DNA from: Chamaelirium japonicum
Lineage: Eukaryota > Streptophyta > Magnoliopsida > Liliales > Melanthiaceae
Reading direction: 5' to 3'
Assembly (NCBI GenBank): GCA_947650365.1
Contig: OX393550.1
Location: forward strand, 113,593,532 to 113,657,531
Length of the DNA stretch: 64,000 bases
How positions within the stretch are numbered: the stretch's first letter is position 1; every line of letters starts with the position of its first letter. This document shows positions 1 to 37,345 of this stretch, in pieces. The notes under the pieces were generated by a model. That model worked only from the letters and a program-made list of their open reading frames with translations, did no database searches and was not told the origin of the DNA. Made by a program: the position numbers and the translations under genes.

Positions 1-2987
1 CGCAGTGGCAAGTGCATGCTGCGCCTCCAATCGACGCTCCTCGTCCTCGGCCTTTGCCAGTATCAAGGGGAGGTCATCTTCCATCGAAGTTCGTTTCAAG
101 CAATGAGCTTCACTATCTGCCAAGAGAACACGTATCTGTGCCTCAAACAAAGAGCCATCTACCTGGAAGGCCGCCAGGTTCTTGCAAAACTCAGGCCCCT
201 CAAGAACCCACCAGCTGCTCAAAGCGTCAAAGCCCTCTTCCTGGAAGGGTGCGAGCGTCGTCTGGATATACTTCCGACAGCTCTCCAAAAGAAGCACAGA
301 GAGAAGGTCTCGCGAACTGCACTTTCTCCTGTCAGCCTCTGAGTGCACAGGCAAGGTGGGCTCCGGTCCTGAAGACTCAAGTGTAGGAACCGCCTCCTGG
401 ACCATCGCCGTGATAACAGTCAGCGGAACCACCGGAGCCGAAGGAGGAGGCACAGGCAAACCTTCCAACAAAACGACTGCGGGAGTAGCCTCTACCGGAG
501 TACCGGACCTAGCTGGAGGAGTCTGTTCTCTCCCTACACTGGAGACCTCATTCTCCTCCCCAAAGCCCAACTGCTTCACGTCAATATCATCCAGGTTGAC
601 AGCACTGCCGGCAAAATCTGCTCCACACACTCCCAAAAGCTCCAAGTTATCCCAGGGAACATCCAGCCCGCCACCTTCAATCAACGTTGCTCTGAGGGGA
701 GAGCACTCCTGCCCAACTCCCTTCGGGGCAGACTCGCAGTCCGGTCCAGCAGACCCTGCCAAAATAAGAGCTGGACAACTCAGCCAACGAAGTAAGAGTA
801 CAAGCACAGAAATTCATGAAACACTAAAAACAAGGTATACCTGCAGCATCCGAAGAAGATACCCCAGAAGGAGGGATTACCTCATCGGCAAAAAGCCCTG
901 GCTCTCCCTCTCGAGCTGACCCTGCCTCGCCAGCACCAGTCAAAGCTGCCTCACACAAGAGGTCCAACTTTCTCCTCTTGGGAGAAGCACAACCACTCCA
1001 AGAAGCCTGAGTCTCAGGAAGACTCTGAACCTTGGAGGACGGAGCCATCTCAACTTCTTGCACAGAAAGTGAAGCCTGGGAAGTACTCTCTCGACGGCCA
1101 CAAGATTTCTCTGACCATCGCTCCTCGGACCAGAGACGGCGATCCTCTGACCCCGCCAGAGAGTCAAAAGGAAAGTCAGCTCGCTCGCTGCTAGCAAGGA
1201 CGTCTAGCGGAAGGCCAGCCAAGAGGGGAAGCACTGACCCGTTGACCCAGCGGCGATACTCAGGAGTTGCGGCATCCTTGCCGCCCGACTTAATCCCCGG
1301 TGAGAAAGTACACCCAGTAAATCGATCGTAAAGCGCTCCCCAGAGGCGGTACGCCTCCTACGGAGTGTAACGTAACCGCAGGCGCAAAGGAGTCCCAGGC
1401 AACTCCTGCCGAAAACCCTGCTGACGAGCAAACCGGTGGGGAGAGTACCGGGCCACCTCCACTACATCCCCACGGCGCCAAACAAGATACCCAGGCCTGC
1501 AACTCACCATGCTCCAGTACAAAGGCTCGGACATCTCCGCCCCATCACACACCAGGGATTTCATAGAAGGCGCAAGTGCATTTTCCGATACAAATTCAAA
1601 GTCAGAAGGGCCCATGCGTCGCAAACACTCTCGGGCACTAGGCTTCGGACGCTCCCATGCGTAATAGGCGTTCATCACACCTCCCACACAAGGAAGGAAG
1701 GGCACCGAGGTCGAAGGTCCACGCGCCGCGAAGATCCCCTTCGGAAAGTGGAGCCCAATCCAACCATAGAGGTAATGCAGGGGGCAAAAGGAACTGGCTC
1801 TGCCTACTTCCCCTCTTGCATTACCCGCACTCGGTAGACTCCAATAGGTGCCGCTAAGCCCGCCGTACAACGAGCAAAGGATCGCTGGCGCCAGGTTAAG
1901 GAACTCTCCAGTCACTATCCGAGCAGCTGCAAGGAAGGTCCCAGGGCGTACCACATCCCCTTCCCAGGGTAAAGCAAAGCGGCAGAGAAAAAGTACTAAC
2001 CCCGCTGACCAGTAAACAGCACGCCAGTCATCGCTACATTCTTCAAGTCCCAAGACTTCCCAGGGACGTTGCGCCCCGGCCATGGAGCACCACTCTTTCT
2101 TCAGAAATTCAATCGGTCGCCGGAAGGTGCCAGGCGCCGGTCTCTTTGACGAAGCATATCTCCACATCGGGTGACTCGAAGGGGGAGCGTGACGATACTC
2201 TCCTCGAAACCAGAAGTCCACCCAATCCGAGTGAAGTACCCGGTCTGACCACTCGCGCGCCGCTATAATAGCATACGCCTTAAAAAGCAAAAGGCAGAAG
2301 CTAGGAGACTCGTCTGGGTCCGTCAAAATCTCTAGAGAAGGAACCTCCTCCTGATAGTAGCTCCGAACTTCTGGACACCCAGAGATGACGTGCACGTCAC
2401 GAAGGGTAATCCCGATTTCACCAGCCCCGGTCAAGAAGGTGTTGGTCTCAGGGCACCACTGCTCACACAGAGCCCGGTACATACCGTCCGGACGGCTGTA
2501 CTCCCAACAGGCCGGCTCCACAAACCTCGCCAGACGCTCCATCCCTGGCTCTGCCTCCAACGCGCCAAATAGCTCTCTCATCCAGTCCCGGAAACCTCCC
2601 AGATACGTGACATCTCCACGCGATTGAATCCCCACACCCCATCGCGTACGACGGGAGCATATCTTCAGAGCAACAACAGGGACCGGAACTGACTCCTCAC
2701 TAGTGTGGTGGAACGGCAACCCCAAGCTCGGCCAAACGATTTGCCGGGAAGATCCTTCGTCAGTGAGGATACGCTCGCCAAGTTTCAACACTCGACAAGA
2801 GCCGTCAGTCACGCCGTCCTCGCAAACTCTCTCGTGCGTCAAAAGCTGAAGTACTGATAGTCCGGTCTCCTGTCTCAAAGCACGGTGGTGGAAGACCTGC
2901 GCGAAAAGGAAGCGAAGATGCGTACTCCCGTGGGAGACCGCATCAACGACCCAGCCAGAACTCGGAAAGCTCTCGTAACGACGAGAC
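1..2987 (-). pseudogene. Antisense plant-mobile-domain (PMD) protein ORF of a Ty3 element, with in-frame stop
   Basis: Read on the minus strand, 2987-841 is one long frame followed by 755 to the window edge. The stretch TLRDVHVISGCPEV near 2400, followed by aromatic-rich helices, resembles the aminotransferase-like plant mobile domain (PF10536). Downstream is an acidic Ser/Pro-rich tail with an SPKRRK motif. A clean 85-bp intron (756-840; donor GTATAC, acceptor TTTTGGCAG) joins the exons in phase and the second exon stays open to position 1. An acceptor CTTTTTCAG at 2988-2996 suggests an upstream exon, not identified. The only break is a TAG at 1358-1360; the same frame continues beyond it with similar composition. 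The ORF lies antisense between where pol would be and the 3' LTR of a Ty3 element. PMD proteins of this kind are known as extra ORFs in plant Ty3 elements; their function is unknown. It could instead be a captured host gene. Confidence 0.72.
756..840 (-). other. Short intron in the PMD ORF
   Basis: On the minus strand the exon ends ...GCTGCAG followed by GTATAC, and 85 bp later a pyrimidine-rich stretch ends in GGCAG. Removing these bases keeps phase 1 and leads into a frame that stays open for the remaining 750 bases. Without splicing, the upstream frame stops at once (824-826). Inferred from splice consensus and frame only. Confidence 0.65.
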
Positions 2988-3039
2988 CTGAAAAAGAAAG
3001 AAGACAAAGCCCAAGTTAGATAGATTCCGAAACGGAGAA

Positions 3040-3375
3040 GTCGGGGGGGCCTTGAGCAAATAAAAAAGAAGAGAGGGGGGTCATAGCAAAAAGCCACGAC
3101 CCTCTCCTCCTCTCTCCTGTTAAAACTAGCAGGGGGGCCCTTGAGCAAATAAAGAAAAATAGGGGGGGTCACAGCAAAAAAGCCATGACTCTCTCTCCTC
3201 TCTCCTGTTAAAACTAGCAGGGGGGGCCCTTGAGCAAATAAAAAGAAGAGAGGGGGGTCACAGCAAAAAGCCGTGACCCTCTCCTTCTCTCCTGTTAAAT
3301 TAGCAGGGGGGGCCTTGAGCGAATAAAGAAAGTAGAGGGGGGTCATGGCAAAAAGCCACGACCCCCTCTCTCTAT
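3040..3375. repeat. 89-bp tandem repeat, about four copies
   Basis: The landmark ttgagcaaata recurs at 3052, 3141, 3230 and (as ttgagcgaata) 3315, spacings of 89, 89 and 85 bp. Each unit has a G-run, a purine-rich segment, gcaaaaagcc and a CT-rich segment ending cctgttaaa. Degenerate copies reappear at about 3737 and 3792. The array sits just upstream of the PMD acceptor, so it probably lies in an intron or untranslated leader of that ORF. The minus-strand frame reads through it by chance. Confidence 0.85.
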
Positions 3376-3399
3376 CTCTTCTATTTAACATGCAGGGGG

Positions 3400-4320
3400 A
3401 GGGTGCGTCGTCCCCGACCAAACACCGGTCGCGCCGCACCCCGCCGGCCCCCGCAGCCCCGGCCGCCTACGCCGCCGGCCTCCGCGCGCCCGCCCGCGCC
3501 CTCCTCCGCCCCCGCAGCCCCGGCCGCGCCGCACCCCGCCTCCAGCCCACGCGCCCGCCCGCGCCCGCCCGTGCCGCTGTTGCACCGACCGGCTCCGGCC
3601 CCCGCGCCCTGCCGCCCTGCGCCCGCGCCTCCGGCCGAGCCCGGCTCCGACCCCCTACCACACCAACCACCGCGTCTCGAGCCCTCCGCCTCCACCTCCG
3701 GCCCGCGCGCAGCCCTGCGCCCACGCCTCCGGACCCTTGGGCAAATAAAGAAAAGAAGAGGGGGACCTAAGTAAAAAGGGCCTCCGGACCCGTGAGCGAA
3801 TAGAGAAAAAAAAGAGGGGGCCATAGCAAAAAGCCGCGACCCTCTCTCTCCTGTTAAAACACGAAAAGGGTGGGGGGGTGCTGCCGGCTTCCTTCACCTC
3901 CGGTCCCCGCAGCCCCACCTCCGGCCGCCCGCGCCCACACCCTCCGGCCGAGCCCGCCTCCGGCCCTCGCGCCTCGAGCCCCGGCCGCCTCCGCCTCCAC
4001 CTCCGGCCCGCGCGCAGCCCTGCGCCCAGGCCTCCGGCCCGCAGCCCCTGCCGCCTCCGCCTCCACCTCCGGCAGCGCGCAGCCCCGCGCCCCTGCCTCC
4101 AGCCCGCGCAGCCGGCCGCACCCCGCAGCCCCCAGCCACGTGCCGCGCCCCGCGCCTCCAGCCCGCGCGCTCCTCCGGCCTGCGCCCTCGCGCCTCGCAC
4201 CCCCCGCCCAGCGCCTCCGGCCCGCGCCCTCCCGCCGCGCCGGCCACCGCAGCCCCGCGCCCGGCCGCTGCCAACCCGGCCACCGCACCCCTGCTGCTGC
4301 CGCTGTCTCGCGCGAACTAG
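3400..4320. repeat. Very C-rich low-complexity spacer
   Basis: Almost continuous ccgc/cctcc/gcgc motifs on the plus strand, with reiterated segments such as cctccggcccgcgc. Every frame on both strands stays open because stop codons are rare at this composition. The predicted products are Arg/Ala/Gly/Pro-rich and match no family I recognise. I treat it as noncoding spacer of the Ty3 element. Confidence 0.75.
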
Positions 4321-4944
4321 AGACCGAAACCAGCGAAACAAAAAAGAAAAAAAAAAGAAAAGGAGAAAACAGAGACGGAAAAACCGTTTTTCATTGAAAC
4401 CTCTATATATAACCATATTCGGTTATTGGGATAGAAAAGGGTTAAATCTTCCATCCCATGAATCTAGGGATCTATATCCGGTGGGCATCCGTATCCGATG
4501 CAACCACCGTTTAATAACAGAAAAAAAAAAAAAAAAGGAGGAAGAAATAGGAGAAGAAAAAGGAAGGAAATCTGGCACGCCTTCGACCACTCCGCCTCTT
4601 TCGCCATTGAGTTCCCGCACCGAAGAGGGGCAACAACCCTCCGCCAAGGCGCATCGCAGCCGTCCTCGCGCTCCTGTCGCCTTGCCGCCCTGGGACGCCG
4701 CGCAGCGGCCGTCGCCAACGTTCGCACCATCCTCGAAGCAAAGGAGGTCCGCGACAACAAGGAAGATGAACAAAACCCTAGAAGATGTCTTCAATGACTC
4801 CAAGCAGCCAAAGCCTTTCGTCTCCCGCGCTAGCAAAACGATGGGGGAAACGAAATGGCAGGGGTTCTTGTAAAGACCCAAATTCCGAGCAAAAAACGCA
4901 AGTCAAGTCCAAGCGCTTCGTGTTTCCCGCGGGCGCACTCGAAC
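4321..4944. other. Ty3 3' untranslated segment
   Basis: Between the C-rich spacer and the polypurine tract. It contains an A-rich run (4520-4550). On the minus strand a short GC-rich frame begins with ATG at about 4733, which could be a leader exon of the PMD ORF. I could not find a donor matching the acceptor at 2988, so no gene is called. Confidence 0.4.
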
Positions 4945-4957
4945 TTGAGGGGGCATT
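4945..4957 (+). other. Polypurine tract of the Ty3 element
   Basis: The sequence ttgagggggcatt sits immediately before the TG that opens the LTR, as expected for the plus-strand priming site. Confidence 0.6.
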
Positions 4958-5061
4958 TGTGGGCATCGAAATTAGCCCACGGGTCGAACCCGATTTTTAC
5001 ACGAAAAATAGGCCCGCACCCAACGGCCTTCGGGTCAAACCCGACTCGCTCATGCAACTTG

Positions 5062-5168
5062 GGCCCGCACACAATGGCCCGTATGCGAAACCCGGCCCGC
5101 ACACAACGGCCCGCATGCGAAACTCGGCCCGCACACAACGGCCCGCGTGCGGACTCGGCCCACGTGCG
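5062..5168. repeat. 32-bp tandem repeat
   Basis: The motif ggcccgcacacaa recurs at 5062, 5094 and 5126, with a degenerate start at 5158. The exact 32-bp spacing lies inside the Ty3 LTR. Confidence 0.85.
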
Positions 5169-5306
5169 AACTCAATTCGCGCGCCATGGCCCGACCCAAA
5201 GTAAACGGGTCCCACCGGACCCGCAACTCGGACACAAAGAGGGGGGCCCACCGGCCCCCCCCCCCCCTTCTAGAAAACCGTGCCCCCCTCCTCATGGAGA
5301 GGTGGG

Positions 5307-5430
5307 GCCGGCCCTAAAAGAAAAAGAAAAGAAAAGAAAAAGAAAAGAAAAAGAGAAAGAAAAAGAAAAAGAAAAGAAAAAGAAAAGAAAAAGAAAATAA
5401 AAGAAAAGAAAGGAAAAAGAAATCAAAACC
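5307..5430. repeat. Purine-rich (GAAAA)n tract
   Basis: About 120 bp of A and G only on the plus strand, built from aaaag/aaaaag units. It lies 300 bp before the LTR TATA box. Confidence 0.9.
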
Positions 5431-5725
5431 GCCTCGATGCGGGGGGAGGTGGCGTGGACGTCTACGTAGCCGTAGATCCGCGACGATCCCTCGATCCAAC
5501 GGACAAGATGACGTTGTGTCGCCATCCGATCCAAAAGTGCAACAAGAATAACAACTCAATCTTTAAAAGATCGAGTCACATCTAGTCCGTAACCACCCCA
5601 ACTAAAAAGGAGGGGATTGAGTTTGTTTCCCCGAATCAGGGAACAATATCTTGATAGTTATGGAGGGAGATATTGGATGAAACAAAAAGATTTCAGCAAT
5701 ATCTCCCCCAACCACCCCCTTTTAC

Positions 5726-5735
5726 CTATAAATAG
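5726..5735 (+). promoter_or_regulatory. TATA box of the Ty3 LTR
   Basis: The sequence ctataaatag within a GC-rich surrounding is a strong plant TATA match. It would start transcription into the downstream part of the LTR (U3/R junction). Confidence 0.6.
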
Positions 5736-6111
5736 AAGGGGTGGGGGAAGGCACAAAGGGTCCGAAAAGCTGAAGACGAAAGAGCGCTACGAAGAAGCTC
5801 CAACGCTTAAAGACCGAAGGCTTCACGAGGCACGGCAAGCATATCCTACGGGAGTCCTTGGCCCTTCAAGTCCTCATCAACGTGAAGACCTTGCACTCGG
5901 AGATCAGAGCTTCGACTCCTCGCACGAAGAAGAAAGCGTGGAGAAGAAGACCCGGAGCCGTCATCACCCGATCGCTCCAATGATCTTCATCAGCTCCGAA
6001 GACGCCATAATCAAAGGCCGGAGAAGAAGATCAAAGCCGACAACACCCGTCGTCTTCAAAGGCATCAACTCCTTGCACGAAGAAGAAAGCCGGGAGAAGA
6101 AGGCCTGAAGC

Positions 6112-6340
6112 CGGTGCTACCCCTGCCGCCTTCGTCAACGAAAACCGACGCTACAACCGTCGTGTTGAAGCCGGTACTACACCCGCCGTCTTCATCAACA
6201 AAAGTCGATGCCACAACCGTCGTACGGGGATTGGTGCTACACCCGCCGTCTTCATCAACAAAAGCCGACGCTACAACCGTCGCACAAGGATCGGTGCTAC
6301 CCCCACCGAGAAGCCAAGCCGACGCCACAACCGTCGAGGA
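6112..6340. repeat. 60-bp tandem repeat in the LTR
   Basis: Units begin at 6112, 6172, 6232 and 6292 and share ggtgctac, ccgcc, ttcatcaac and gctacaaccgtcg. The last unit is shortened. Spacing is exactly 60 bp. The array is a multiple of three, so frames pass through it, but I recognise no domain. Confidence 0.85.
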
Positions 6341-7018
6341 AGCCGGAAGAATCAAGAAGCCTCGCAGAAGTAGCCTTCGCCGTTCGAGAAGAAGATCGAG
6401 TCAAAGCCGAAGCCAAAGCCAACGCAAGAAGCCAAAGCAAACGCACCGGTAAAGCCCGCGCTAAAGCAACGCACGTGCCAAAGCCAAGCAACTACGACGG
6501 TTACGAGCAAAGCACCGCACGTTCTAGCCGATACGACGCGAAGTCCGGAAGAACTAAAGCATCGCAAGTCTCTACCCGCCTACGTTCAAGCGCAAGCGCC
6601 AAAGCAAAGCAAACGCCAGAGCCACACCAAAGCTACGCCAAAGCCGAAAGCTAAAGCCAAAGCCGACGCAAAAAGCACGATCGACGCCGCGAACCGACGA
6701 TCAAGGACGCCGAGGTCGAGCAAGGATCGAGGAAGACACGAAGACCGAGGAACGAAGCCCAAAGCCTCCCTAGCCGAGAAAGCGCGAAGCACGGACGGGA
6801 CAAAATCGACGGCAGAAACTCCTTAGCCTCTCAAAAACCCTCACCCTGTAAAGACCTCTGTCCTGGGCAACCCCTACAGAGCTCTCGCACGAATACCACG
6901 TGGAGACGCGGATCAAAGGGACCCTCCAGAGGATCTCTCCCATAATCTCCTGATCAAAGAAAATTTATAATCTCGTGTGATCCGCAATAAAGACGACCCG
7001 AATCTTTTTTCGCGCTCA

Positions 7019-8584
7019 CAGTCACATCTCATACATATGAACTCTATTCGGAATTGGCTATCTATGCCACCCATCGATGACTCATTCTTCAACGGACATG
7101 ACAACTACATACATATCTCACTACTCAGATACTGACAAGAACATTAGCCTAAAGGATGTTGTTGAGAGGACTACGCCAGCGAGGACAGTAGTGGTGGGCA
7201 ATTGTGATAACGAGGACGGTAAAGATGATGACATCGGTCGAAATTCGAGCAAATTCAACAGCAAAATCATATGACTCCAATGGTGGTTCCAACAAAATCC
7301 GGTAACTCTAACTACGGTTCTGACAAAATCCATAAAAAAGCGAAGAAAAGTTTGCAAATCTAACAAAATCAAACGAATCTAGAGACGAGATCCGGCAACT
7401 TCATGTGAAATTGATCGCTTTCGGCGAAATTATGAGGTTTCGAGTGAAATGGGAAGGCTTCGATCGAAATGGGAATGCCTCGATCAAAGTCAGTCAGCAT
7501 TTAGATGCCCCAGCCCCAGCGAAATCAGCCCATATGTTTCACAAAATCTCTGAATTGATTTCTATCAAAATTATCGAAAATACGTACAAAATGATAAAAC
7601 CTCACCGAAATGGATACTAAAATCAGGTGACAACACTTGGCTTTAGTGATCCCCAATTGTTTCGATTGGAATCTTGACAAATGGACGAAATGTTCACGAA
7701 TCGATGAAACTTCAGCGAAGTGGACGGCAAAACCGGAGAACGGTACATGGTTTCAGTGGGCCCTGCTATTTCGTTCAAAATTTTATAACACCCCTGAAAT
7801 CTCGAAACTTCACTGAAATTAGAATGGGTCCGGATTTCAAACAACCCTTTTAATTCGCTCGCGACTGAAACCGAATCTTTTGACAAAATTTCAAACCATG
7901 GAGTCAAATCGTGTCGCCGCCAATTTCAAATTATAGGCCGGGTCAAATAGAAGTTTCAACAGAAGTCAATTATGCACCCATTCGACAGTGGCTTGTTTGG
8001 TTGCTGTGTTTTCAACCTGTGATTGAAAACATATGTGCAAACAGTTTATGGTTGTTTGTTTAGTAGGGTGTGACGTGTGCAAGTAGATGCACACCTGCTA
8101 AACTTGTACAACTTTTGCACATAAAATTGTGTAAATAAAATTTCAACTAAATACATGAATCTTTAATTGCACATGTCACATGTGCAAATAGATGTGCGCG
8201 CATCATTTGCACAGCAAGGAAGAGGTCAGGCTCAAACCATGTCACCACCAATGCAAATTATGGTCTTTTTTTCTTTACTTCTCGAATTACCAAGTCAAAC
8301 ACCTTGCATTGCGCACCATCCCAAATAGATTGACAACAATAAGGAACAAATGTCACCGTTACCAACTATAAGTTGCCGACAACGGATCGACAATTTCCAA
8401 AATAAACATGCAAAGCAATAATCAAGAAACCACAACAAACATCTAGAAGCAATATGAAACCTTTTATGAATGGAGCAGTATAATACCTAATTCACAAATC
8501 ATACTTACGAATATGATGTCCTCCTTTTCAAAATTCTTTTCCATTCTTTAACCAAATCATCTTAGTTTTATTTCTACTTTCTAA
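7019..8584. other. Unassigned spacer between the Ty3 LTR and the Harbinger element
   Basis: AT-rich, with frequent stops. From about 7240 to 7940 the motif cgaaat/gcgaaat and its variants recur at irregular spacing. Around 7988 the sequence gcttgtttggttgc resembles the end of a Tourist-type MITE, but no partner end was found. No gene is supported. Confidence 0.5.
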
Positions 8585-13658: not shown

Positions 13659-16600
13659 ATGGAATCCCCCTTATTTGAAACACCCACCACCACCAACTCC
13701 TCCACATCTGAAATATCCACCACCAACTCTTCCTCGTCCACAACGATCTCCTCTTCCCCAATCTTCCACTTTATTCGTAACATTGTCTCTCTCATCACAA
13801 TCAAGCTTATGATCAATAAGGACAGCACGTCCAACTATCTTTTGTGGCGTGCACAGGTCACCACTATGCTTCGGGCATATCAAGTCGATTATCTTCTCAC
13901 CCAACCTCCGCCCTCGGCTACCCTTGTTGACGCTCAAGGCCGCACTTCCCCGAATCCTGTTTACCTTAAATGGACCCATTCTGGTCAACAATTGCTCGCT
14001 GCCCTGCTTGCTACTCTTTCTTCACTTGTCCTCCAATACGTGGCTTCCTTCTCCTACATGTGTGCCATCTGGGCAGCACTCGAGAAACGGTTTCTCTCAT
14101 CGAACCGCTCCAATATTATGCAACTCAAATCTCAGATCCAGCAACGTAAGAAATGATCTTCCACCATCTCTGACTATCTTCCACCATCTCTGACTATCTT
14201 CAAAATATCAAACTTATTGCTAATAATCTTGCCGTTGTACGTTGGCGCTTGCTTATCTGATGAAGATCTTATTCTTCATGCCTTAAATGGTCTGCCTCCT
14301 ACATACAATGCCTTCAAAACTGTCATTCGTACACGTCCCGGGTCCCTAACAATGGATGACTTTATCGCTCTCTTGATGACTGAGAAGATGAATATGGATT
14401 TGCAGCCAGTTACTCAGGATATGATACATGTTGCTGCTGCCCTCACCGTTACGCATGGAGGCTGTGGTTGGCACGGTGGCCACGGCTGTCGTGGAGTCCG
14501 CGTGGAGGTCATGATTTTCCTCGCGGTCGCAGCAACATCCAAGATGGTGGCCAGTTATTCAATGAGAACCGCACCTCTTTCGGTGCCCGGTTTCCAGAAA
14601 GTGGACGTGGCATCCTTGGTGCTTCTCCTCCCGTTTGCCAGATCTACGAGAAACATGGCTATCTTGCTCCAGATTGTTGGCATCATGGTAACTACAACTA
14701 CGAGCCTCCTGCCACACCTCAGGCTCCACACCCATCCTTATCACGATATGAACACTGTCACTGTGGGCAATGGTCAGTCTCTTCTAATTTCACACATTGG
14801 TGATGGTGTACTTCCTACTTCATTGGCATCTTTTCATTTACGTCACATTCTTCATGTTCCTAATATCTCTTCCAATCTTATATCTATTCATAAATTTTAT
14901 CATGATAATAAATGCAATCTTATCTTTAATTCGGATGCCTTTTTTGTTCAGGACAAAATCACGAGGAGGATGTTTTAATTTTTCATGGGCGCAGTAAGCA
15001 TGGGTTGTATCCGTTTCATGAGCTTCAATCCTCTCCCTCGTCCTTCTCTGGTGTAGCTCTCATTGCCTTTATCGTCGATACTTCCATGTGGTATGTTCGC
15101 TTAGGTCATCCGTCGATAACTGTTCTTCGCCAACTTCAGAACGGCAACTGTGTTCCTCGCCTTCAGCCTTTAGATTTTCGTTGTGTTGCTTGTAACCTTG
15201 GAAAGAGTCATAAACTCTCGTTCCCGTTATCTAGTTCTACTATTTTCCGTCCTCTCGAGTTAGTCCATTCAGACATTTGGGGACCTTCTTCTATTGTAAC
15301 GACCTCTGGTTATTGGTTTTATATGATATTCATAGATGATTATTCTCGCTTTACCTGGTTGTTTCCTTTGCAGCATAAATCTGATGCTCTTCATGTTTTT
15401 ATCTTTTTTAAAAATTTGGTTGAAAACTTCTTGATGTCAAAATTAAAACTTTTCACACTGATGGTTGTGGTCAGTTTATTAATCATGCTTTTGCCTCTGA
15501 ACTTGCTACTCATGGTATCTTTCATCAGGTCTCTTGCCCCCACACCCCGGAGCAAAACAGGGTTGCTGAACGCAAACACAGCCACCTAATTGAGACTGTT
15601 GTCACCTTTCTTCAATATGCATCGATGCCCCCAATCTATTGGGTTGATGTCATTTGTACGGCTACTTATCTAATTCATCGTATGTCGTCTCCTGTCATCT
15701 CTAATAAATCACCATATGACATTCTATTTAATCGTACACCAGATTACACCACCTTGTGCGTGTTCGGATCCTTTTGCTTTCCTTGGTTGCGTCCCTATAA
15801 GACACATAAACTAGAGGCACGTTCAGCACGGTGTACTTTCCTTGGCTATTGCTCACGCTCAAAAGGCTACCGTTGTCTCGATATCGCCATTGGATGTGTT
15901 TATGTGTCCCGTCATGTTGTTTTTCATGAGAGCATATTTTTCTTCTACAATACTGGACCATCACTACATGCTCGCACTTCTCCTTCCCTCTCGCCCTACC
16001 ATGCCTTTTACTCCCCCCCCCCCTCTCTTTTCCTCTTCATCAGGTACCCAACCCATGCCGCCACCTGCTCCTTCTCTACCGGTGCCTCCGCCTACTTCCA
16101 CATTGGAATAGCACCAATGGGCCAGTGTCAGACACTCCGTCACCCCTCATTACAACTTCCGCAGAGACTGCCAGTCCCCTACCTCCTCCACCACCGCTTA
16201 TCTCCTTATTGCCTCACTCGCCTACACGGGCATCAACATCTACAAGTACCACAACATCGTGGCGTCTTCCCTTTGCATTCCGCTTATGCGCCTTCAGCTA
16301 TGTCTGCTCCTATCATGCCATCTAGTGATTTGCCGATGTTAGCACCGTCGGCTCCTCCGCCTACATCTTACCCAATGGTTACTCGTTCCAAATTAGGCAT
16401 CTCCAAACTCAAGCTACCAACAAGCATGCTAGCCACCTCTACCTCCTCCACTATAGAATCTGAACCATCTTGCTACTCTGAGGCGATGAAACATCGACAT
16501 TGGCGTACAGCCATGTCTGCTGAATTCCAAGCTCTTCAGGAGCAAGGAACCTGGACACTTGTTCCTCCCCCGAATTCTAGCAAAATTATTGGGTGTCGCT

Positions 16601-17440
16601 GGATCTTTAAGATTAAACGCAATCCAGATGGTTCTGTCTCGAGGTACAAAGCTCGCCTAGTAGCAAAGGGTTTTCATCAACAAGAAGGCGTTGACTACCA
16701 TGACACCTTCAGTCCGATGGTTAAGCAACCTACAATTCGTATTGTTCTCTCTCTGGCCCTACAGTATGGCTGGCAGCTTAAGCAACTTGATGTGTCCAAT
16801 GCCTTTTTGCATGGATCTCTCTCGGAGCACATCCTCATGTAGCAACCACCAGGCTTTGTCGATCCGGCTCTACCAGGCCACGTGTGCAAGCTACGTAAAG
16901 CAATATATGGCTTGAAACAGGCTCCGCGTGCATGGTTCGAGGAATTTTCCAAGTTCCTTTTCTCTCAAGGGTTTTGAAGCAGCCACAATGATTCCTCCCT
17001 CTTTATTCAGCGTGACTCAAACGGGATTACTATTTTTCTATTATATGTTGATGATATCTTATTGACAAGTAGTCATCCAAAATTTCTATCTTCACTTATT
17101 CAGCAAATGGGTCAACAATTTGCTCTCAAAGAACTGGGACCACTACATCATTTCTTGGGAGTCTCATTTATTCCAAATTCAAAAGGACAACTTCTACATC
17201 AACGTCAGTATGCTATTAACATTCTCAATCTGGCAGGCATGTTCAACTATAAGCCCTCGGCTACACTAGTCTCCACTAAGAAATCATTAAATCCATCCAT
17301 CCCTTTATCGGAGCCTACCTTCTATCGTCACCTTGTTGGGATGCTACAGTATCTGACAATAACTCGACCAGATATGTCCTTTGATGTCAACTCCATTTGT
17401 TAATATATGCATGCCCCCACTGATGCTCATGTTACAGCTC
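13659..17440 (+). pseudogene. Outer copia gag-pol (gag to RT), broken
   Basis: The gag domain (13659-14400) reads NYLLWRAQVTTMLR and IWAALEKRFLS. A knuckle remnant near 14635 reads CQIYEKHGYLAPDC, in which the second Cys and the His positions are both Tyr. Integrase starts at WYVRLGHPSI (15089) with CVACNLGKSHKLSFP, HSDIWGP and FIDDYSRFTWLF, then a frameshift near 15420. RT (16500-17400) contains WIFKIKRNPDGS, NAFLHGSL and LLYVDDIL. Stops lie at 14154, 16840, 16975 and 17401, with several frameshifts. The RT ends at VTALK where the inner element is inserted. Confidence 0.9.
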
Positions 17441-17445: not shown

Positions 17446-19775
17446 TGTTAGAATTGGTGAGGTCTATAGCTCGTAAAAATCTAGTGTTTAGCTTTGTATG
17501 GTTGATAGTATAGGATTGCATATTGGTACGTACCTTAGTACGTGTTCTGATTACAGAACAGAGAGCCATGGCTACATGGTAATCCACTTGAGTGGGAGAC
17601 TCAAGGGACTGGTCCCATGTAACCTAAATACGTTCGCAGCTCTGATAAGGGTTGGTCGCCCTATCAGGATAAGCTGTTGGGATGACAGAGCGTAGGTGTC
17701 TCCACCACGGTCATTAACAGGCACAATGTCTGTGGCCGAACGGAACCAACACGGTGCACAGATCGATGAGCAGACATCGGTGCACTAAACCGTGTTTCTG
17801 CTTAGGGTAAAACGGTCCTAAACCCTGAGGAACCATGTCTGGTGGACTAACCAGTTGTGTGGTGCTTTGGCGCACCAATGTGTGAGGATCCGGATGCAGT
17901 GATCCAAAACCACGGTGTACTGGGTTACCCGGCTGGCGTTGCATCAGCTTGTCACTCCTGCAGGCTATCCACACCCCTAACGGGAGGTGCGTTCCTTGGT
18001 CTGACCTACGTCGTATTAAACCCTGGCCAAGTGGTCATCAGTTGGACTGGTGACGGATCCGGTTGCTCGGAAGAGTAATCGGAGGTACGATGTATGTGGT
18101 CAACCGGGAAGGAACCGAGTCATATGAGCACTCGAGTCTGACGGGATTCTCCACTGCTCGAGTTGCATCATGGCACCAAGTGGAGGGACAGCGAGTTTAC
18201 CATACTAAGCGGAGAGCAGGGGTGTGAGAGAGAACATAGTAAGTCCGGGGGAATTGGAGTGCAGCCTGCGTCGCACTCTGGGTGGCTACGCAGGTTAACT
18301 CGGACTCAGAGGATCGATGGTACACTCGGGTAGTGTGTCGATCGAGTCTGAGTTGGAAGTCATGAACCCTGGTCCCTGAAGGTTCCACCTTATCGACAGT
18401 ATGTACGGTTCTTATACCATCTCCTCGAAACACAGAACGTAGTTAGAGGAAGCGAGAAGTCCAAGCATACGCTCCGTGAGTGCTTCGCACTAGTGCACGG
18501 TAGATGCGTAGCTACGTGTGTGCACTAAGGGGAAACCCTAGGTTAGTGCAGAGACGCATGTAGCAATTCCTTGCCATAAGTGGACTTTGCCACATGGGTG
18601 CGATGCACCGGGACATGTTGCGAGTTGACTAGTTGACTTCACTAGGGGCACCCTACGGGAACCTCAGAGAATAGTGAAATCACTGGTGCACTTCACTTAT
18701 GTGTGCCTTGCAAAGTCTCGTACACGAGGAACGGCCAACTAGTGGCATAAGGGCGTTTTGGTCTTACCATGCGCCACTATGCACTAAGGGGGCCGGCCCA
18801 AAGTGTTGAGAGACTGGTCAAGGCCGGCCCCATTAGTTTCGGGAGGTTGTTGCCTCCGATGAAGGGGCCGGTTATGAGGCGCAGAAAACGGGCTGGTTTT
18901 GACCGTTTTCGAAAACAAGGAAAGGATAGAGATAGAGAAGAGATATATAGGGATAAGGTTTGAATCTATCATCCTTATCCATACTGTCCTTATCCATATG
19001 AATAGGCCGGCCCTATATATGAGAAGGAGAGAGAGGGTGCACGAAATTAATAGAGCCATGCAAGCCCTAGGGCCGTCCATGGCATGGGGAAACCCTAGCC
19101 GCCCCCTCTCCTCTCTTCGCATCTCCTCTCTCGTCTCTCTCTCCCTCGCTTGTGCCATTGGATGGCGACTCGTCTTCCTCACGTGGTGTTTTGTAGAAGG
19201 AGAAGGCTCGTCGTATGGAGGCACTCAGAGATCCATCGACGAGGTGCCGTGCATCGTGTGAGATCGGGTGAACTAGAAGGAGTCTTCCGCAACCTTTTGC
19301 TGTCCAGAATCTGCACAGAAAACCAATGTTGTTTTTGCGATTCCGGGAGCTACAGAAGTCCAAACGATGTGAAACTTGTTGGAAAAGTTGCGTCTCGAAG
19401 TTGGCTACCTGCAGTCCAAATTTCAGCCTAATCGGAGTTCGTAACAGAAAGTTATGGCCATCGTACCGAAGCTATGTCGAGCAGATCCGTAGCCCGTCTC
19501 CATCGACAAAGAAGAAATTTGTCGCGGTGAAAGATTCCGCACGCAGGTATGATCTCTAACAAGTAGATCTAACATAATTAGAACATGCATTCATGCTAGA
19601 TTGTTCGTTTGCGTTAGATCGTCGTTAGGGGTTCGTGTAGTTGCCATGCTAGATTCATACACGCATATGTAGATCGTTTCGATGAAAATTTTGATATGTA
19701 ACGCACACCGCTCATGGTCCTCGGACCTTCACTTTGCTTCCGCTGCGGGCCTCTACCATGGATTCACATCCAACA
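17446..19775 (+). mobile_element. 5' LTR of the inner copia
   Basis: 2330 bp, TG...CA, followed after two bases by the initiator-Met primer site. A TATA-like ctatatatg lies at about 19012 ahead of a GA-rich segment. Small ORFs inside it repeat in the other LTR and are not genes. Confidence 0.95.
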
Positions 19776-19777
19776 AT

Positions 19778-19789
19778 TGGTATCAGAGC
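19778..19789 (+). other. Primer binding site of the inner copia
   Basis: tggtatcagagc, complementary to the 3' end of plant initiator-Met tRNA, two bases after the LTR. Confidence 0.9.
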
Positions 19790-21620
19790 ACGCTAGTGGT
19801 GTGCGTTTCATGTTTTTCATGAAACCGTCATGTGCGCGCATGAATAGTATGTGCCGCCATCGGGGTTCTACGAGTAGATCATGCATAGTAGATTTTGTAT
19901 GTTCTATGAATCGTTCTTGCAGGGCGCCGCTTCTAAAATTATTCTGGATATGTGATTGCTTGCTACCGGGGGTCGGACCCCGTGTTAGCGATTTTGTCTG
20001 GATGTTTTTTCTTCTGTGTGTGGATAGATTTTAGAGCCATAGTCGGGCAAGAGGTGAAGATTTACCACCCTTGATTCCCAGGCTTTTGCTAGGTTTGTTT
20101 TCCTTTTCTTTCTAGGAAATTGTGTACGAGCGAGCACTTGCTCGAAGCGTACTAGATCTTTTTCGGTTACAGATTGAAGAGGAGGACTTACCGTGGAGAT
20201 CCACCACTGGGAAGATGAGCGGAACCTTGGAGGACGATGGCGATCCGGCGAAGCGTACACGATGACGGCAAAGGGCATAAAGCGTCAGAAGATCGTATAC
20301 AGAGGCTTGCACCGGATCGAGGAGCCTTGTGAAGGAGACAGAGAGCCTGCGCTGTGCCAGTCAGGTTCAGGGGTCGGACCCTGAACTTGATTCAGTTGTG
20401 TGCTTATTTCTTTCAGCAGTTCTTTATATTTCTGTAGAGAACCCCGATGCGATAATTTGATTATCTGTGTCAGAGGGATGCCCTTTCCCCTCGGGTCCTA
20501 GCGACCTTATTAGGATTGGATTCCACTAGTGACGCCTATTATTCAATTGACCCTTGATGATAGTATGAATTCCTCACATTTGGTTATGCCCCCATTAGGT
20601 CAACACCCGATTAGTCGGGTGTGCCTATTTGGCAAGCATCGAAACCTAGAATGAGTTGGAATTCTACTATGACATCATTCGTCAAATTTATAAGCAAGGC
20701 GCCATGGTAGTGGAAGACCTTTCCTGTCAGTCTGACCTTAGGCTAGGCTCCAGGGCATTAGCGTGATAGCCAAGTTTGCAAAGCATCAATGTTCTTGGGA
20801 TATGTAATGTGACCCTTGAGTGGAGAAATCCACTCGAGGCAGGGACTATGATATTCCAAGATCGATTAATGCTTCGTGAAAGGCTTGAATGCTAGTGGGA
20901 GCACGGTATGACCAGGGTCTAGTGTATAGGTTGTCGTGACCTTAGTGTACACTCATACTTGCATTAAATAACCCTCAACTTTAATAAGGGATGTAAGAGA
21001 GGACTTTTAGTGATCCTCTGGCCTCCACGGCCAATCGTTTTGTGTTTGGGTGGGGATGCATAACTTCACACCCCCTAGGGTGGGAGCTGTGTGTTTCCAT
21101 GCCAAATTACTTAATGACCTCCCTAAGGATATGGCGATTACGAGGCCAGGAGAGAAGGGCTTTTCATCCCACCCTAGTGGGGGCCGCATGAACTCCCGTG
21201 TCATAATTGCTTAGGCTCGTGGGTAAGCATCCTAAGTGCACGTGAGGTATTCGTTGCGAAGACAACGGTGATCACGTGGCACTGGCCAAAAGATAACCAT
21301 GGTCCATCAAAGCCCTTAGTTGGCAGATTTGGACTGGGTCAAGGAAAGGCCCGTGTAAGCGGATTGACGCTGCATGATGCCCCCTAGGGCAGGTGTAGTC
21401 GATTCCGAGATCTTACATACATGGTTAATTAATCCATAGAGGTGTCTTCGCTGTGAGGGTAGCGCTGACATTTGGATATAATTAGCTTATTTTCAAAATC
21501 CATAAAATAAGTTATTTTGCATTCATTTTCATTCAACCATATAGTTCCCCTATCCGCTATCCCATAAAAGAACCAGTTATCGGGTCTCTAACTACGTAGA
21601 GTGGAAGCACAATCTTTAGC
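19790..21620. other. Inner copia 5' leader
   Basis: No coding domain seen. The sequence is unusually long for a copia leader (about 1.8 kb before recognisable gag) and has frequent stops in all frames. Confidence 0.5.
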
Positions 21621-21626
21621 TTATGC

Positions 21627-24600
21627 TTAGGGTAGTAAATGCACATTGGCATGCAATCTAAATATCCCTGTACTAGACCTAATGGGTCCAGATATCACTA
21701 GGGCACTAACTAGGGCATATGAAGACTGGCAAGAGTCTAAGGAGATGTGCAAGTACTATGTTATAGCAGACTTGCGGACAATTCTTTAGAAGCGAGTCAG
21801 AGATATGCCGGGTCTTCTCTAATTAAGTTTTACTTGCATTAGATGTCTGGAAGGCAAAGTCAGTCGACTCATCGCTTTTCCACTAAGATACTTGTCGGTA
21901 CCGAGATGTCAGTGGGTATGCTTGTTCGGGAACACATCTTTGAGTTCCAGAACGAACTAGATTCCCAAGACATGGTACCAGATGACGAGGTGGTGGAAGA
22001 CGTCTGTCTTGCATCCTTGTCTGGAACCTTCGAAGGCGTTATCAGAGACTTTACCTTTAACAAGTTAGAGATGATAAACGAAGAACTTCTAAGGAGATTT
22101 CCAAGAGACAAAGGATGAGATCAAGATTAAAGGCAATGCCTTTAGTGCTTAACCTAGGTCTTCTTTAGAAGAACCTAAGGGAATAACTTATAAGAGATCG
22201 AAAACTATTCTAGTGCAGAAACTGGTATGGAATCCTAAGTCTGGTAACGCCAAGGACGGAAGTATTTCCGTTGTGGCGAGCATAGGGGGTATTTGAAGAT
22301 TGAGTATGACCTCAGGATGTTAGGAGTTGAGTCGCTATCTAGTAGCAGTTCTTATGCTTCTTGGAATGTAGACTTCTGGTCTACAGATATTCAAGGAAAG
22401 CAGAAGGCTACTTTATAGTGAAGGAATCCTAACATAGGTACTGATGCCATAAGCCGCTGCGGAAGCTGTTAGATATGATTGTCTTAGTTTTTCCGAAATA
22501 CGGATTTTGTTTTTTAGAGATGTAGTTCTGTTTCCTCTTTGGTAAATGAAGTTTTTAGTTTTAGACAGCACCGTAGGTGTGTATCTTAAACTAAATAGAT
22601 AGCTTCATTACTAGAGAAATAGATCAGAATAATCTCTTTATATTTAATCCTAATTCAGAAATAGATATCATGACAGCTGCAGCGTCTAATTTAAATTCAT
22701 CTAAATCCTTCGGAGAAGCTATCCCATTTGTGACCCCTCTGATTTAGATATTCTGCATTAGATAAATTCAAAGGTAAAAGAAGGCCGAGTTTCTGTTCAC
22801 AGATTCATTGGAGATCCTTCTAACCTATGAATGTTATCTGGAAGGCAGAATAACTAAAAGGGCCATTAAGGTATTGGAGTTAGTTAATTTTGACGTCTAT
22901 GGTTCCAAGAGCGTCTAGACGATAGAAGACTCTTCAATTTAATCGAAGAAATAAGTCACTATCGGACGAGTTCCATAGGATCCTGAGAGAGTATGGGATT
23001 ATCTCCCAGTTAAATGCTCTAAGGATGACACGTCAGAATGAAGTCTCCGAGAGAAGGAATCGGACTCTGTTTGACATGGTCCGTAGTATGATGAATATTG
23101 CCAAGTATACTACCCACCTTTGGTGGGGTTGTACCTTAAAACAGTAGCTTATATCTGAAACTATCTCTCATCTAGATCAGTACCTCAGACCTATAGAGAG
23201 CTATGGTCTAAGCGAAAGCTGACACTATAGTGTCTCGAGATATAGAGTTGTCCTGCACTTGTGCAAAACGACAAGAGGGATGAGATGGAGATGTAGTTCC
23301 AGGTATATCTGTTTATAGGTTACCCTTAGGAGGCATAAGATGGACTGTTTTATGATCTTGAGGTTAGGAAGGTAATCGTTTCTACGAACACCATCTACCT
23401 AGATCAAGATTATATTATAAGACCATAAGTTTATCAGTAAGGTAGTTATGGGTGAACTACTGGGTACTGGTAGAGAGTGCGCATTTGAAAAACGTAGTGG
23501 GAGTAGATGATACAAGAAACTAGTATACCAGGTATTGTAGAAACGATTCACTTTGTACCACCACCACCTCATCGTTGTGGGACCATCAGAGCTCCTGAAA
23601 GATACTATGGAGAAACTTCGATAGTTAATCCAGAGTTTCAGGAGGATGATCCTTAGAGCTATGAAGAAGTAGTGGGAGCTCACTTTGTACCACCACCACC
23701 TCATCGTTGTGGGACCATCAGAGCTCCTGAAAGATACTATGGAGAAACTTCGATAGTTAATCCAGAGTTTCAGGAGGATGATCCTTAGAGCTACGAAGAA
23801 GTAGTGGGAGCTTCCTTTGTACCACCACCACCTCATCGTTGTGGGACCATCAGAGCTCCTGAAAGATACTATGGAGAAACTTTGATAGTTAATCCAGAGT
23901 TTCAGGAGGATGATCCCTAGAGCTACGAAGAAGTAGTGGGAGCTTCCGACAGCTCTGACTGACAAAAGACCATGGAGGCAAGCTTACATCATGTCCCTTG
24001 GAACAGTCTTGACACTTATAGCACTATCACCCTTCAGGGTGTAGGAGGTGTATAAGAAGAGCATCAGGTTAAGACTTAAGTAGCTAGATTAGTTACCAAA
24101 GGAGAAGGAATTGACTATGTCAAAACCATCTCACTGGTAGCTATGCCTAAGTCTATAACGGATCCTCTTAATCCATCACAGCCCATTATAGTTGGGAGAT
24201 CTGGTTGATGGATGTCAAGACAGTTATTCCCTAACGGGAATTTGAAAAGGGACATATGGATGATGTAGCCTCAGGCTTTGTGTCAGTAGATTAGGAAGAT
24301 ATGGAATGCAAGTTGCATTGGTCCATTTATGGACTGATGCAAGCATCCAGGTTGGAATGTCTATTTTGATCAAGGGAATCCGCTCACACGGATTTGATCA
24401 GAATGAGGATAAACCAAGTTGGTACAAGAAAGGTGAAATAGCTACAAGGGTGTATTTAGTACTTTACGTTAACGATATTTTACTGATTGAAAATGATGTA
24501 AGAATATTGTTTACGGTAAAGGTTTGTAGTCATCACAATTCGATGTGAAAGACCCTAATGAGGCGAGTTATGCTCTGGGAATTAAGGTAACTCGAGACAA

Positions 24601-25285
24601 CCAGAGCAAGATTCTCTTGCTGTCACAGGCTACGCATGAAGATAAGATTCTAGCCAGATTCGTTTTAAGAGGCTAGATATCTATTGCGCAGCAGGAAGAT
24701 GGGTCGGTTTCAGTCGAACCCGGGTCCAGATCTTTGGACCGATGTGAAGGGTGTACTCAGAAATCCTCGTTAAGTAAGGATTGTGAGTTAGCTTGCACTT
24801 CACAGGTCCTGATATCGATTGGACACACAGGATCTGACTTTGGTGTCAAATGTGTGTTTCAGAGAATCGATTTCAGGGATTATTTTTATTTTGGGATTAG
24901 AAGCGGTAATTGGTAGAGTGTGAAGCAAGTGCATCACAGACTCTACCACAAATGCTTAGCACGTTGTTGCGTGCGAAGTAGTATATCAGGTGGTAAGGCT
25001 TAGGAAGTTCTTAGAGAACTTGGGACGCGTACCAGAGGCTCAGTTATCTGTTGTTACAACAGAAGAGTGGTAAGCAAGGTCCAAGGAGACTAGGCACCGC
25101 CGTGAGGGGAAACCCATCAAGTACAAACTCCACTTGATCTGACAGTTATATGAGGAAATGCAAGTAGCGGTACTGAGGTGGAATCTACAGACAATGTTGT
25201 CAATTCCTTTAGGGAATTCCTGCAAAGGCTTTTGGGCAGCATGTAGATGCTACAGAGCTCAACACCGTTATTCCTCGTTAGACCT
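21627..25285 (+). pseudogene. Inner copia gag-pol, heavily decayed
   Basis: A gag segment (about 21690-22120) includes RAYEDWQESKEMCKYYV and, in another frame, the conserved C-terminal helix before NKLEMINEELL. Integrase remains near 22970-23150: ILREYGIISQLNALRM, then VSERRNRTLFDMVRSMMNIA. A linker with ERYYGE follows in three tandem copies. RT traces include GIDYVKTISLVAM near 24110 and LVLYVNDILLIEND near 24480, where the usual YVDD motif reads YVND. More than a dozen stops and frameshifts occur. The linker and gag style resemble the Tork/Tnt1 group. Confidence 0.8.
23551..23946 (+). repeat. 132-bp tandem triplication inside inner copia pol
   Basis: Copies start at 23551, 23683 and 23815 and are nearly identical. 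Each is 44 codons, so the pol frame is preserved, reading VPPPPHRCGTIRAPERYYGE, an Asp/Glu-rich part and SYEEVV around one in-frame TAG. It covers the integrase-RT linker. Confidence 0.95.
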
Positions 25286-25295
25286 AGTGGGAGAT

Positions 25296-28304: not shown

Positions 28305-28395
<91 letters not shown>
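28180..28395 (+). mobile_element. Truncated 3' LTR of the outer copia
   Basis: Starts tgataaggttaccaaccc after the polypurine tract and follows the 5' LTR to the position of its short TA run. There it becomes about 88 bp of (TA)n and the remainder of the LTR is absent. By eye about five or six differences occur in the roughly 125 shared bases, more than in any other LTR pair here. Confidence 0.8.
28308..28395. repeat. (TA)n tract
   Basis: About 88 bp of TA dinucleotides that replace the rest of the outer copia 3' LTR. Confidence 0.95.
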
Positions 28396-28990
<595 letters not shown>

Positions 28991-37228: not shown

Positions 37229-37264
37229 AAGACGCGTTTTAAAACCGTGCGCCGCTACGGAATT

Positions 37265-37345
37265 CGTAAGAACTCCGTAGTTAAGCGTGCCCGGGCGAGA
37301 GTAGTACCAGGATGGGTGACCACCCTGGGAAGTTCTCGTGCGGGC
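37265..37345 (+). other. 5S rRNA-derived segment in Cassandra 5' LTR (not a functional 5S gene)
   Basis: aactccgtagttaagcgtgc, gggcgagagtagta and ggatgggtgacc are the A-box, intermediate element and C-box regions of plant 5S rRNA. The 5' third of 5S is missing. In Cassandra this segment can act as a pol III promoter. Confidence 0.9.

Follow-up and report, generated by a model that had tools for sequence, protein, structure and literature searches.

A putative spliced antisense plant mobile domain gene in a Tat-type Ty3 retrotransposon of Chamaelirium japonicum

The element and its antisense frame

The window (64,000 nucleotides of Chamaelirium japonicum contig OX393550.1) opens inside a Ty3/gypsy element that carries an antisense gene for a plant mobile domain (PMD) protein between its integrase and its 3' LTR (Table 1). 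The host-genome flank to the left of the window encodes, on the plus strand, gag, protease, reverse transcriptase (RT), RNase H and integrase in Ty3 order. It also holds a 5' LTR (C2:113565328-113567373) whose identity with the 3' LTR is 99.0%, counted across 2046 aligned sites after 17 gap columns had been dropped. The protease match (PF13975) scored 22.6 bits, below its cut-off of 28.2. Between PF17917 and rve lies a match to PF13456 (RVT_3; 32.6 bits against a cut-off of 21.6), which we read as the extra RNase H (aRH) described in passages of PMC6317226. The LTR pair with its target site duplication (TSD), the Ty3 gene order on one strand and the extra RNase H are those of the Tat lineage of Ty3/gypsy elements. 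This copy has transposed, as its TSD and matching LTRs attest.

The first-pass annotation, made from the letters of the window, had described the 3' LTR of a plus-oriented Ty3 element ending at 7018. The LTR pair, the TSD and the sense pol in the left flank bear out the identity and direction, and the LTR in fact ends at 7020. Leftward extension of the contig, which had been proposed as a check, turned up sense gag-pol, the 5' LTR and the TSD, and not an ordinary host locus without Ty3 pol. The possibility that the LTR is minus-oriented was rejected, since the TSD, the 5' LTR, the pol direction, the TATA at 5727 and the AATAAA at 6986 all fit the plus strand. A TGG 6 nt past the 5' LTR is a candidate primer binding site (PBS) and matched no tRNA; tRNA and Rfam scans gave nothing relevant to the antisense gene. 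Elsewhere in the LTR, a TATA-like match lies on the minus strand at 6969.

Table 1 Features of the element in and beside the window
Feature	Position	Strand	Remarks
Last exon	1-755	-	72 more codons beyond the left edge of the window
GT-AG intron, 85 nt, phase 1	756-840	-	Branch-point-like CTTAC 37 nt before acceptor
Main exon, second part	841-1357	-	Includes PKRRKLD
In-frame TAG, this copy	1358-1360	-	ORF list
Main exon, first part	1361-2987	-	One base and 542 codons past acceptor; carries PMD (PF10536)
AG of upstream-intron splice acceptor	2988-2989	-	Top of 432 acceptor sites, minus strand of 1-7020
89-nt tandem repeats, 3.8 copies	3043-3378	.	Tandem Repeats Finder; inside presumed upstream intron
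Non-autonomous-type stretch reaching LTR edge (mosaic part)	3650-4957	.	Identity comparison with loci
Short purine tract, PPT-like	4947-4953	+	Immediately before 3' LTR (sequence)
3' LTR	4958-7020	+	Begins TGTGGG, ends CTCACA; TATA at 5727, AATAAA at 6986 (motif scan)
TSD GTCAC	7021-7025	+	Identical 5-mer precedes 5' LTR
Sense domains PF03732, PF13975, PF00078, PF17917, PF00665, in this order		+	Profile matches

The minus strand from 2989 to 1 encodes a PMD protein (PF10536, E 2.7e-16, 60.1 bits against a cut-off of 34.9), and the frame does lie antisense to the element, as had been proposed. Its longest stretch without a stop has 543 codons, while the longest seen among 1000 simulations had 368, and the plus-strand frames across 841-2989 contain 17-20 stops each. 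The frame had been described as open for more than 950 codons; in this copy it is interrupted by the TAG at 1360-1358, and a stop at this codon occurs in one of 30 PMD loci, namely the window's own. The second part of the main exon includes a stretch, PKRRKLD, which we take to be nuclear-localisation-like. The last exon encodes a charged tail, probably helical, and its stop lies at L009:9782-9784, 217-219 bases to the left of window base 1. The first description of the gene's extent therefore holds only in part: it missed the second acceptor at 2989-2988, and the frame reaches 72 codons further left. A PDB sequence search that returned 18 distinct sequences, AP endonucleases at E 0.33-0.49, and an NCBIfam search with a single match at E 0.35 gave what we judged to be chance hits.

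Splice sites and leader of the antisense gene

Two minus-strand frames follow each other without overlap, one closing at 824 and the other opening at 813, which rules out a simple frameshift as the link between them. The phase-correct 85-bp intron noticed in the first-pass annotation is a GT-AG segment (840-756) that joins the PMD frame to the second open frame, which runs off the window at 1. Scored with splice-site matrices, it ranks first among the 2091 GT-AG pairs, 65-200 nt in length, that the minus strand of 1-2989 contains. Two of 200 Markov shuffles reached its score, and one of the 42 chunk-and-strand controls across the window surpassed it. Another donor, at 880, has a score equal to that at 840 but disrupts the frame. 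The GC content is 0.39 in the segment and 0.57 and 0.56 in its flanks.

A look at related copies for the intron had been proposed as a check, and all 30 PMD loci have it, with none lacking it. Among the 25 gap-free copies (dS 0.14), the donor GT is kept in 24 and lost in one, and both the acceptor AG and CTTAC, at the same position, are present in all 25. Diversity is 0.053 in the intron core and 0.009 in its last nine bases, and donor bases +3 to +6 vary among copies. These 25-copy counts, here and below, exclude the five of the 30 loci that have indels within the compared stretch (L037, L050, L054, L057 and L062): three with frame-shifting exon deletions, one with a deletion of ~416 nt and a one-base intron insertion, and one with an intron insertion.

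The upstream acceptor AG is kept in 30 of 30 loci. The first 130 codons after it are constrained (diversity 0.031/0.017/0.131 per codon position) though the exon's first in-frame Met comes later, so the start lies upstream. Codon periodicity is absent from 2990-3466. An open PMD frame up to 3466 in the window copy was accordingly rejected as the gene start, given this absence, repeats spaced 85-89 nt and an open length that varies in the 12 listed copies. The four PMD copies examined have a leader in common, which contains TTTAAAAGG, CTAGGGTTT and, 175-176 nt inside the LTR edge, an ATG; these PMD-copy leaders held no convincing conserved candidate for the upstream-intron donor.

Recurrence, selection and non-autonomous relatives

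Each of the 80 genome hits that were scored extends over all of the 543 residues; 68 are stop-free and 12 have stops in the PMD part. PMD and integrase are convergent in 28 of 28 pairs among the matches listed, 1821-1876 bp apart. A search of the viral_contigs and plasmids collections for relatives outside the host genome found none.

The PMD codons gave a dN/dS of 0.078 in the 25 PMD-chosen gap-free copies of the 30 loci. Because choosing by PMD similarity alone could lower dN/dS, a control with five integrase-chosen copies was run, which gave 0.093 at a dS of 0.20 over 199 codons; two of the five have stops within those codons. Diversity per codon position is 0.015/0.011/0.087 in the PMD and similar, 0.021/0.018/0.090, in the integrase end (7 copies). 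To judge from these values, the PMD codons are under purifying selection, and a constraint similar to that on the integrase end speaks for a use of the protein by the element. One opposite-strand frame has a dN/dS of 0.12, which we put down to shared third positions.

The rest of the frame is less constrained. The second part of the main exon has a dN/dS of 0.41 over 171 codons, and codon constraint in the last exon is weak (0.044/0.025/0.042 and 0.035/0.030/0.070 in 29 loci, without L054; four of the 29 frame readings, out of register by indels, are uncounted). In 23 of the 25 copies that are in register, the last exon stays open as far as the end of the locus. A stop within 2989-841 occurs in 6 of 25 copies, frame-shifting exon deletions in 3 of 30 loci, and the main-exon deletion of ~416 nt in one.

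Most of the relatives fetched as copies of the 3' region lack the gene. Twenty of the listed places were fetched, and 40 of 3158 candidates were scored. Of the 20 fetched copies, 19 are without the PMD part, and the remaining copy, L021, matched neither query; the pol core is visibly deleted too in 18 of the 19. The first-pass annotation had named copies without the frame as evidence against its reading; such copies do exist, most of them without a pol core as well, but PMD-bearing copies are numerous. Antisense frames of 166-209 aa in seven non-autonomous copies do not, by eye, continue the PMD frame.

The stretch 3650-4957 of the window is 94-99% identical to seven of seven non-autonomous loci. 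The PMD copies match the window at 68-70% in 3650-4320, are unmatched in 4321-4860 and match at 82-84% in 4861-4957. By these identities the window copy is a mosaic, with a leader of the non-autonomous type and an antisense frame of its own that is interrupted by a stop.

Possible roles of the antisense protein

We propose, with a probability of about 0.75, that a high-copy Tat-type Ty3 retrotransposon here carries an antisense accessory gene with a spliced transcript and a protein that acts in trans. The conserved protein sequence and the conserved splice sites together suggest that the reverse strand yields a helper protein. We infer antisense expression from selection and splice-site conservation, and the function suggested below is likewise inferred. 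Leftward transcription would begin at a promoter close to the 3' LTR's inner edge. The transcript would be spliced at least twice, as conservation suggests, once at the upstream intron, which contains the repeats and ends at 2989-2988, and once at 840-756. The product would comprise at least ~1,040 codons from the acceptor on, with the PMD, the nuclear-localisation-like stretch and the charged tail. The genomic RNA for reverse transcription would be the other strand, on which the intron reads CT...AC, so it would not be removed at each round of transposition. Survival of the intron through antisense placement had been suggested in the first-pass annotation, and its conservation at dS 0.14 fits this. 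The protein's most likely site of action is the nucleus, and it would serve the element family in trans.

Host PMD proteins MAIN and MAIL1 are needed for transposable element silencing, according to passages of PMC5418596 and PMC7156037; the plant mobile domain is common to them and to the protein described here, but they are host genes outside any element. A PMD made by transposable elements has already been suggested as a counter-silencing strategy in a passage of PMC8616336. Our tentative reading, to which we give less than even odds, is that the element's protein is a counterpart of MAIN/MAIL1 that shields the element from silencing; it would then represent the transposon's part in the MAIN/MAIL1 pathway. 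We would go as far, and with as much reserve, in suggesting that antisense orientation lets a retroelement own a spliced nuclear gene, with introns and promoter, that survives reverse transcription. The PMD protein would be a trans counter-silencer for both autonomous and non-autonomous copies, which, because the window copy is a mosaic, would exchange sequence by recombination.

The protein might instead serve the retrotransposition cycle, in nuclear import or integration-site choice, which we also rate at less than even odds. We know of no link of the PMD to integrase or import, and this counts against such a role. The PKRRKLD stretch would agree with it, as would the loss of the PMD along with the pol core in 18 copies, which is expected of a trans-acting factor. 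For gene23 of maize Grande, a passage of PMC7264820 reports a promoter of its own and a nuclear protein, and the nuclear location favours a cycle role; by contrast, the host PMD proteins act in silencing (passages of PMC5418596).

A PMD gene captured from the host, which now hitch-hikes and decays and whose constraint is a remnant of its past in the host, would explain the in-frame stop of the window copy, the stops in the PMD part of 12 of 80 scored hits and the loss of the PMD from non-autonomous copies. However, every scored hit covers the full 543 residues, and copies at dS 0.20 still show a dN/dS of 0.093 with a per-position diversity that resembles the integrase end. The divergence thus arose among element copies, and we hold a decaying passenger to be improbable. 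Slightly less probable again is that the selected product is the antisense RNA, as a silencing or dsRNA regulator, the protein mattering little. dsRNA from antisense aORF transcripts is discussed as possible regulation in a passage of PMC7264820, but the codon-position pattern and the dN/dS of 0.08-0.09 indicate that the PMD amino acids are what is kept, and phase-correct splicing would be unneeded. Finally, it is very improbable that the 85-nt segment is an insertion or an indel-scrambled stretch: it is AT-richer than its flanks and one window control chunk has a higher-scoring GT-AG pair, but none of the 30 loci is without it, and its place, GT-AG and CTTAC are the same in copies with 5% intron-core difference.

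The preferred reading, an accessory gene with a trans-acting protein, fits known kinds of antisense PMD genes in Ty3 elements. The frame recurs in antisense between pol and the 3' LTR, as eORF-3'R or aORF-3R genes do, and contains PF10536, the domain of gypsy-encoded PMD (PMD-A). Passages of PMC5418596 describe clades PMD-A1 and PMD-A2 of the latter, and according to a passage of PMC6317226 the PMD is present in 57% of Ogre elements. These are likewise PF10536 proteins from plant Ty3/gypsy elements, here of the Tat type; unlike the present case, the passages of these two papers mention no extra-ORF intron. Antisense aORF-3R genes of maize Grande (gene23), rice RIRE2 and Silene Retand, in passages of PMC7264820 and PMC11963269, also lie between pol and the 3' LTR and are kept by many copies. 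In these passages, 97% of Retand clusters have an antisense TRP28 and not a PMD, whereas the gene here has a PMD and a conserved intron. The word "intron" is absent from the main text of PMC11963269, and TRP28 (PF04195), the Retand mark, was absent from the three antisense pieces scanned (E up to 1). We found no report of a selected intron in an antisense PMD gene of a Ty3 element. HBZ of HTLV-1, named in a passage of PMC11963269, is likewise an antisense accessory retroelement gene with a nuclear product; HTLV-1 is a human retrovirus, and the likeness is an analogy of principle only.

What antisense genes do in plant Ty3 elements is called an open question in a passage of PMC7264820. The conserved intron makes expression testable, as a read spliced across 840-756 could come only from the antisense strand and not from gag-pol RNA. 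A survey in which extra ORFs are predicted as unbroken frames would catch such a gene only exon by exon; in a passage of PMC6317226, extra ORFs were predicted by getorf as frames of at least 250 codons. Marks of the Ogre subclade are the RT phylogeny and an intron that splits the gag-protease and RT frames. In some relatives of the present element, integrase lies within one continuous frame, up to 2695 codons long, unlike the pea Ogre in passages of PMC6317226.

The antisense gene and its host element

A Ty3 element of the 1.52-Gb genome (window, C2:113593532-113657531; C2 is contig OX393550.1) carries an antisense gene that is subject to purifying selection and has a phase-correct, conserved intron. 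The left flank, where the first-pass annotation had proposed looking for sense gag-pol, a 5' LTR and a target site duplication, contains all three: gag and pol lie in L011 and L009, the loci fetched left of the window, and GTCAC adjoins both LTRs. These are 99.0% identical (20 differences over 2046 aligned sites, with 17 gap columns left out), a K2P distance of 0.0099, or about 0.4 My at the rate of 1.3e-8 that we assume. The gag of this copy is broken by stops, and between protease and RT another element is inserted, which has a 2330-bp LTR 97% identical to window 17446-19775 and whose matches suggest a tandem with three LTR copies. The element resembles Ogre/Retand, as RVT_3 sits between RNase H and integrase, the arrangement described in PMC6317226; TRP28, an antisense domain of Retand elements, was not found in the antisense pieces scanned. 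In some relatives a single frame, up to 2695 codons long, contains integrase.

Features of the element and of the rest of the window (bare coordinates refer to the window)
Feature	Location	Strand	Description
gag PF03732, protease PF13975	L011	+	profile matches; protease below its cut-off
RT PF00078, RNase H PF17917, then RVT_3 PF13456, integrase PF00665	L009	+	profile matches
Integrase frame stop	L009:9529	+	about 250 bases before antisense stop
5' LTR	C2:113565328-113567373	
3' LTR	4958-7020	
PMD open frame	2989-1361	-	543 codons
Upstream acceptor	2989-2988	-	AG
In-frame TAG	1360-1358	-	same frame resumes to 841 (ORF list)
Intron	840-756	-	GT-AG, 85 nt, phase 1
Antisense stop	L009:9782-9784	-	72 codons beyond the window
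Tandem repeats	3043-3378	+	89-nt units; AATAAA and long purine tract on this strand, like repeated polypurine tracts
Copia-like coding regions	14157-16842; 42915-46290		split over several frames
Second LTR element	17446-27625		2330-bp LTRs 98.7% identical; same family (97% in LTR) nested in the PMD element
Inverted repeat	28309-28876		long, CT/AT-rich, about 90-95% complementary
Retroelement remnant	34607-36864	+	RVT_1 and RVT_3 matches in two separate frames
5S rRNA-like copies	37232-37767		two, 417 bp apart, within duplicated stretch
Copia element	57972-64000		gag, integrase, RVT_2; LTR copies 99.9% identical over 1081 bases inside the window

The open frame contains the plant mobile domain (PMD; PF10536, E 2.7e-16, 60.1 bits, cut-off 34.9), and its stop-free run of 543 codons compares with a maximum of 368 in 1000 simulated sequences. 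Beyond the intron a second frame exits the window at left. There is no overlap between the two frames, which rules out joining them by a simple frameshift. The PMD frame and its phase-correct intron are as first annotated; the uninterrupted length of more than 950 codons is not, since the TAG breaks the window copy.

The intron has a GC content of 0.39, against 0.57 and 0.56 in its flanks. Scored with splice-site matrices that we assume, it ranks first among 2091 GT-AG pairs of 65-200 nt (minus strand, 1-2989); 2 of the 200 Markov-shuffled sequences reached that score, and among 42 controls (chunk and strand) taken from the rest of the window one held a higher-scoring pair. A donor at 880 scores nearly equally and does not keep the frame. 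All 30 PMD loci (genome copies with the antisense gene) have the intron, two of them with one extra base. Among the 25 gap-free copies the GT is retained in 24, and all 25 retain the AG and the CTTAC, which in the window copy lies 37 nt upstream of the acceptor. Unspliced read-through meets a stop within the intron in 24 of the 25. Intron divergence is 0.053 in the core, 0.009 in the last nine bases and 0.149 in the first six, despite the retained GT.

The upstream acceptor is the strongest of 432 (minus strand, 1-7020), and its AG is retained at 30/30 loci. The 130 codons that follow are constrained (diversity per codon position 0.031/0.017/0.131) and have no in-frame ATG near their start; the gene therefore probably begins in an exon farther upstream. 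A leader common to the four PMD copies examined comprises TTTAAAAGG, CTAGGGTTT and an ATG 175-176 nt inside the LTR edge; a convincing donor for the upstream intron was not found in these leaders.

Selection and recurrence

Across the 25 of 30 loci without indels in the compared stretch, all picked by PMD similarity, the PMD part gave dN 0.0107, dS 0.1379 and dN/dS 0.078, and the 171 codons behind it 0.41. The ratio was 1.8-3.5 in the other frames of the stretch apart from one on the opposite strand (0.12), a value that we ascribe to shared third positions; each plus-strand frame of 841-2989 contains 17-20 stops. Because this set had been picked by PMD similarity, five copies chosen by integrase were added; their dN/dS was 0.093 (dS 0.20, 199 codons), and two of the five each carry a single stop. 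Diversity per codon position is close in PMD (0.015/0.011/0.087) and integrase end (0.021/0.018/0.090, 7 copies). The last exon is only weakly constrained (29 copies), though in 23 of 25 in-register copies its frame meets no stop before the locus ends. There are also signs of decay: 6/25 copies have a stop within 2989-841, and the five left-out loci comprise three with frame-shifting exon deletions, one with a main-exon deletion of ~416 nt and a single base inserted in the intron, and a fifth with an intron insertion of one base only.

The 80 scored PMD matches, the best of 4765 first-look candidates, all span 543/543 residues; the 79 besides the window are 95-98% identical, and 68 of the 80 are stop-free in the PMD part. 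A PMD match lies within 6 kb of an integrase match in 28 cases (115 integrase matches listed, 20660 candidates), and all 28 pairs are on opposite strands, convergent and 1821-1876 bp apart; both lists hold best-scoring matches, and the other 52 PMD matches are uninformative on pairing. The left-hand parts of six PMD copies were fetched as well, and all six match the integrase end and the stretch behind it at 90-97%.

Possible role of the PMD protein

A promoter near the 3' LTR edge would drive antisense transcription, and the transcript would be spliced. The product may be a nuclear protein, given its PKRRKLD stretch, which we take to be a nuclear-localisation-like motif, and would act in trans. 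We tentatively read it as a counter-silencer (probability roughly 0.35): transposon silencing requires MAIN and MAIL1, which are PMD proteins of the host (PMC5418596), and TE-made PMD has been proposed as a counter-silencing strategy (PMC8616336). A role in import or integration is nearly as probable. Excerpts of earlier work already place PMD in Ty3/gypsy elements and describe antisense aORFs (PMC6317226, PMC5418596, PMC9289625, PMC7264820, PMC11963269). The literature searched, whose coverage was partial, yielded no account of an antisense PMD gene with an intron; PMC7264820 recommends that antisense and spliced transcripts be given more notice.

Relatives without PMD and the mosaic window copy

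The loci that match window 4000-5000 best belong to another type; 40 out of 3158 candidates were scored. None of the 20 loci fetched has a match longer than 84 nt inside 442-2867, and 19 retain pieces on both sides of this gap; L021, one of the 20, had no match to the queries. For 18 of these 19, a mere 31-123 nt separate the piece up to L009:5820 from the one that starts at L009:9496, which means that RT to integrase is absent; in the remaining locus, L017, only the later piece is visible. Judged from these alignments, such relatives are shorter derivatives that lack both the pol core and PMD. The first-pass annotation had held that copies lacking the ORF would count against it: every scored PMD match is full-length, but 19 of the 20 fetched 3'-region relatives are without PMD.

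Over 610-692 nt, window 2990-3640 shows 76-95% identity with six PMD copies; its match to the other, non-autonomous type covers about 210 nt at 71-73%. Window 3650-4957 matches 7/7 non-autonomous copies at 94-99%, and 4321-4860 is without match in PMD copies. The first 800 LTR bases resemble PMD copies most (96.5% to L070, against 82-93% to the other type), with 99% identity over 274 nt to L046, from the same copy as L070. On this pattern the window copy is a mosaic of both types, and its matching LTRs and target site duplication indicate that it moved as a mosaic, or nearly so. The simplest reading is that the mosaic would have arisen by recombination between two RNA types during reverse transcription.
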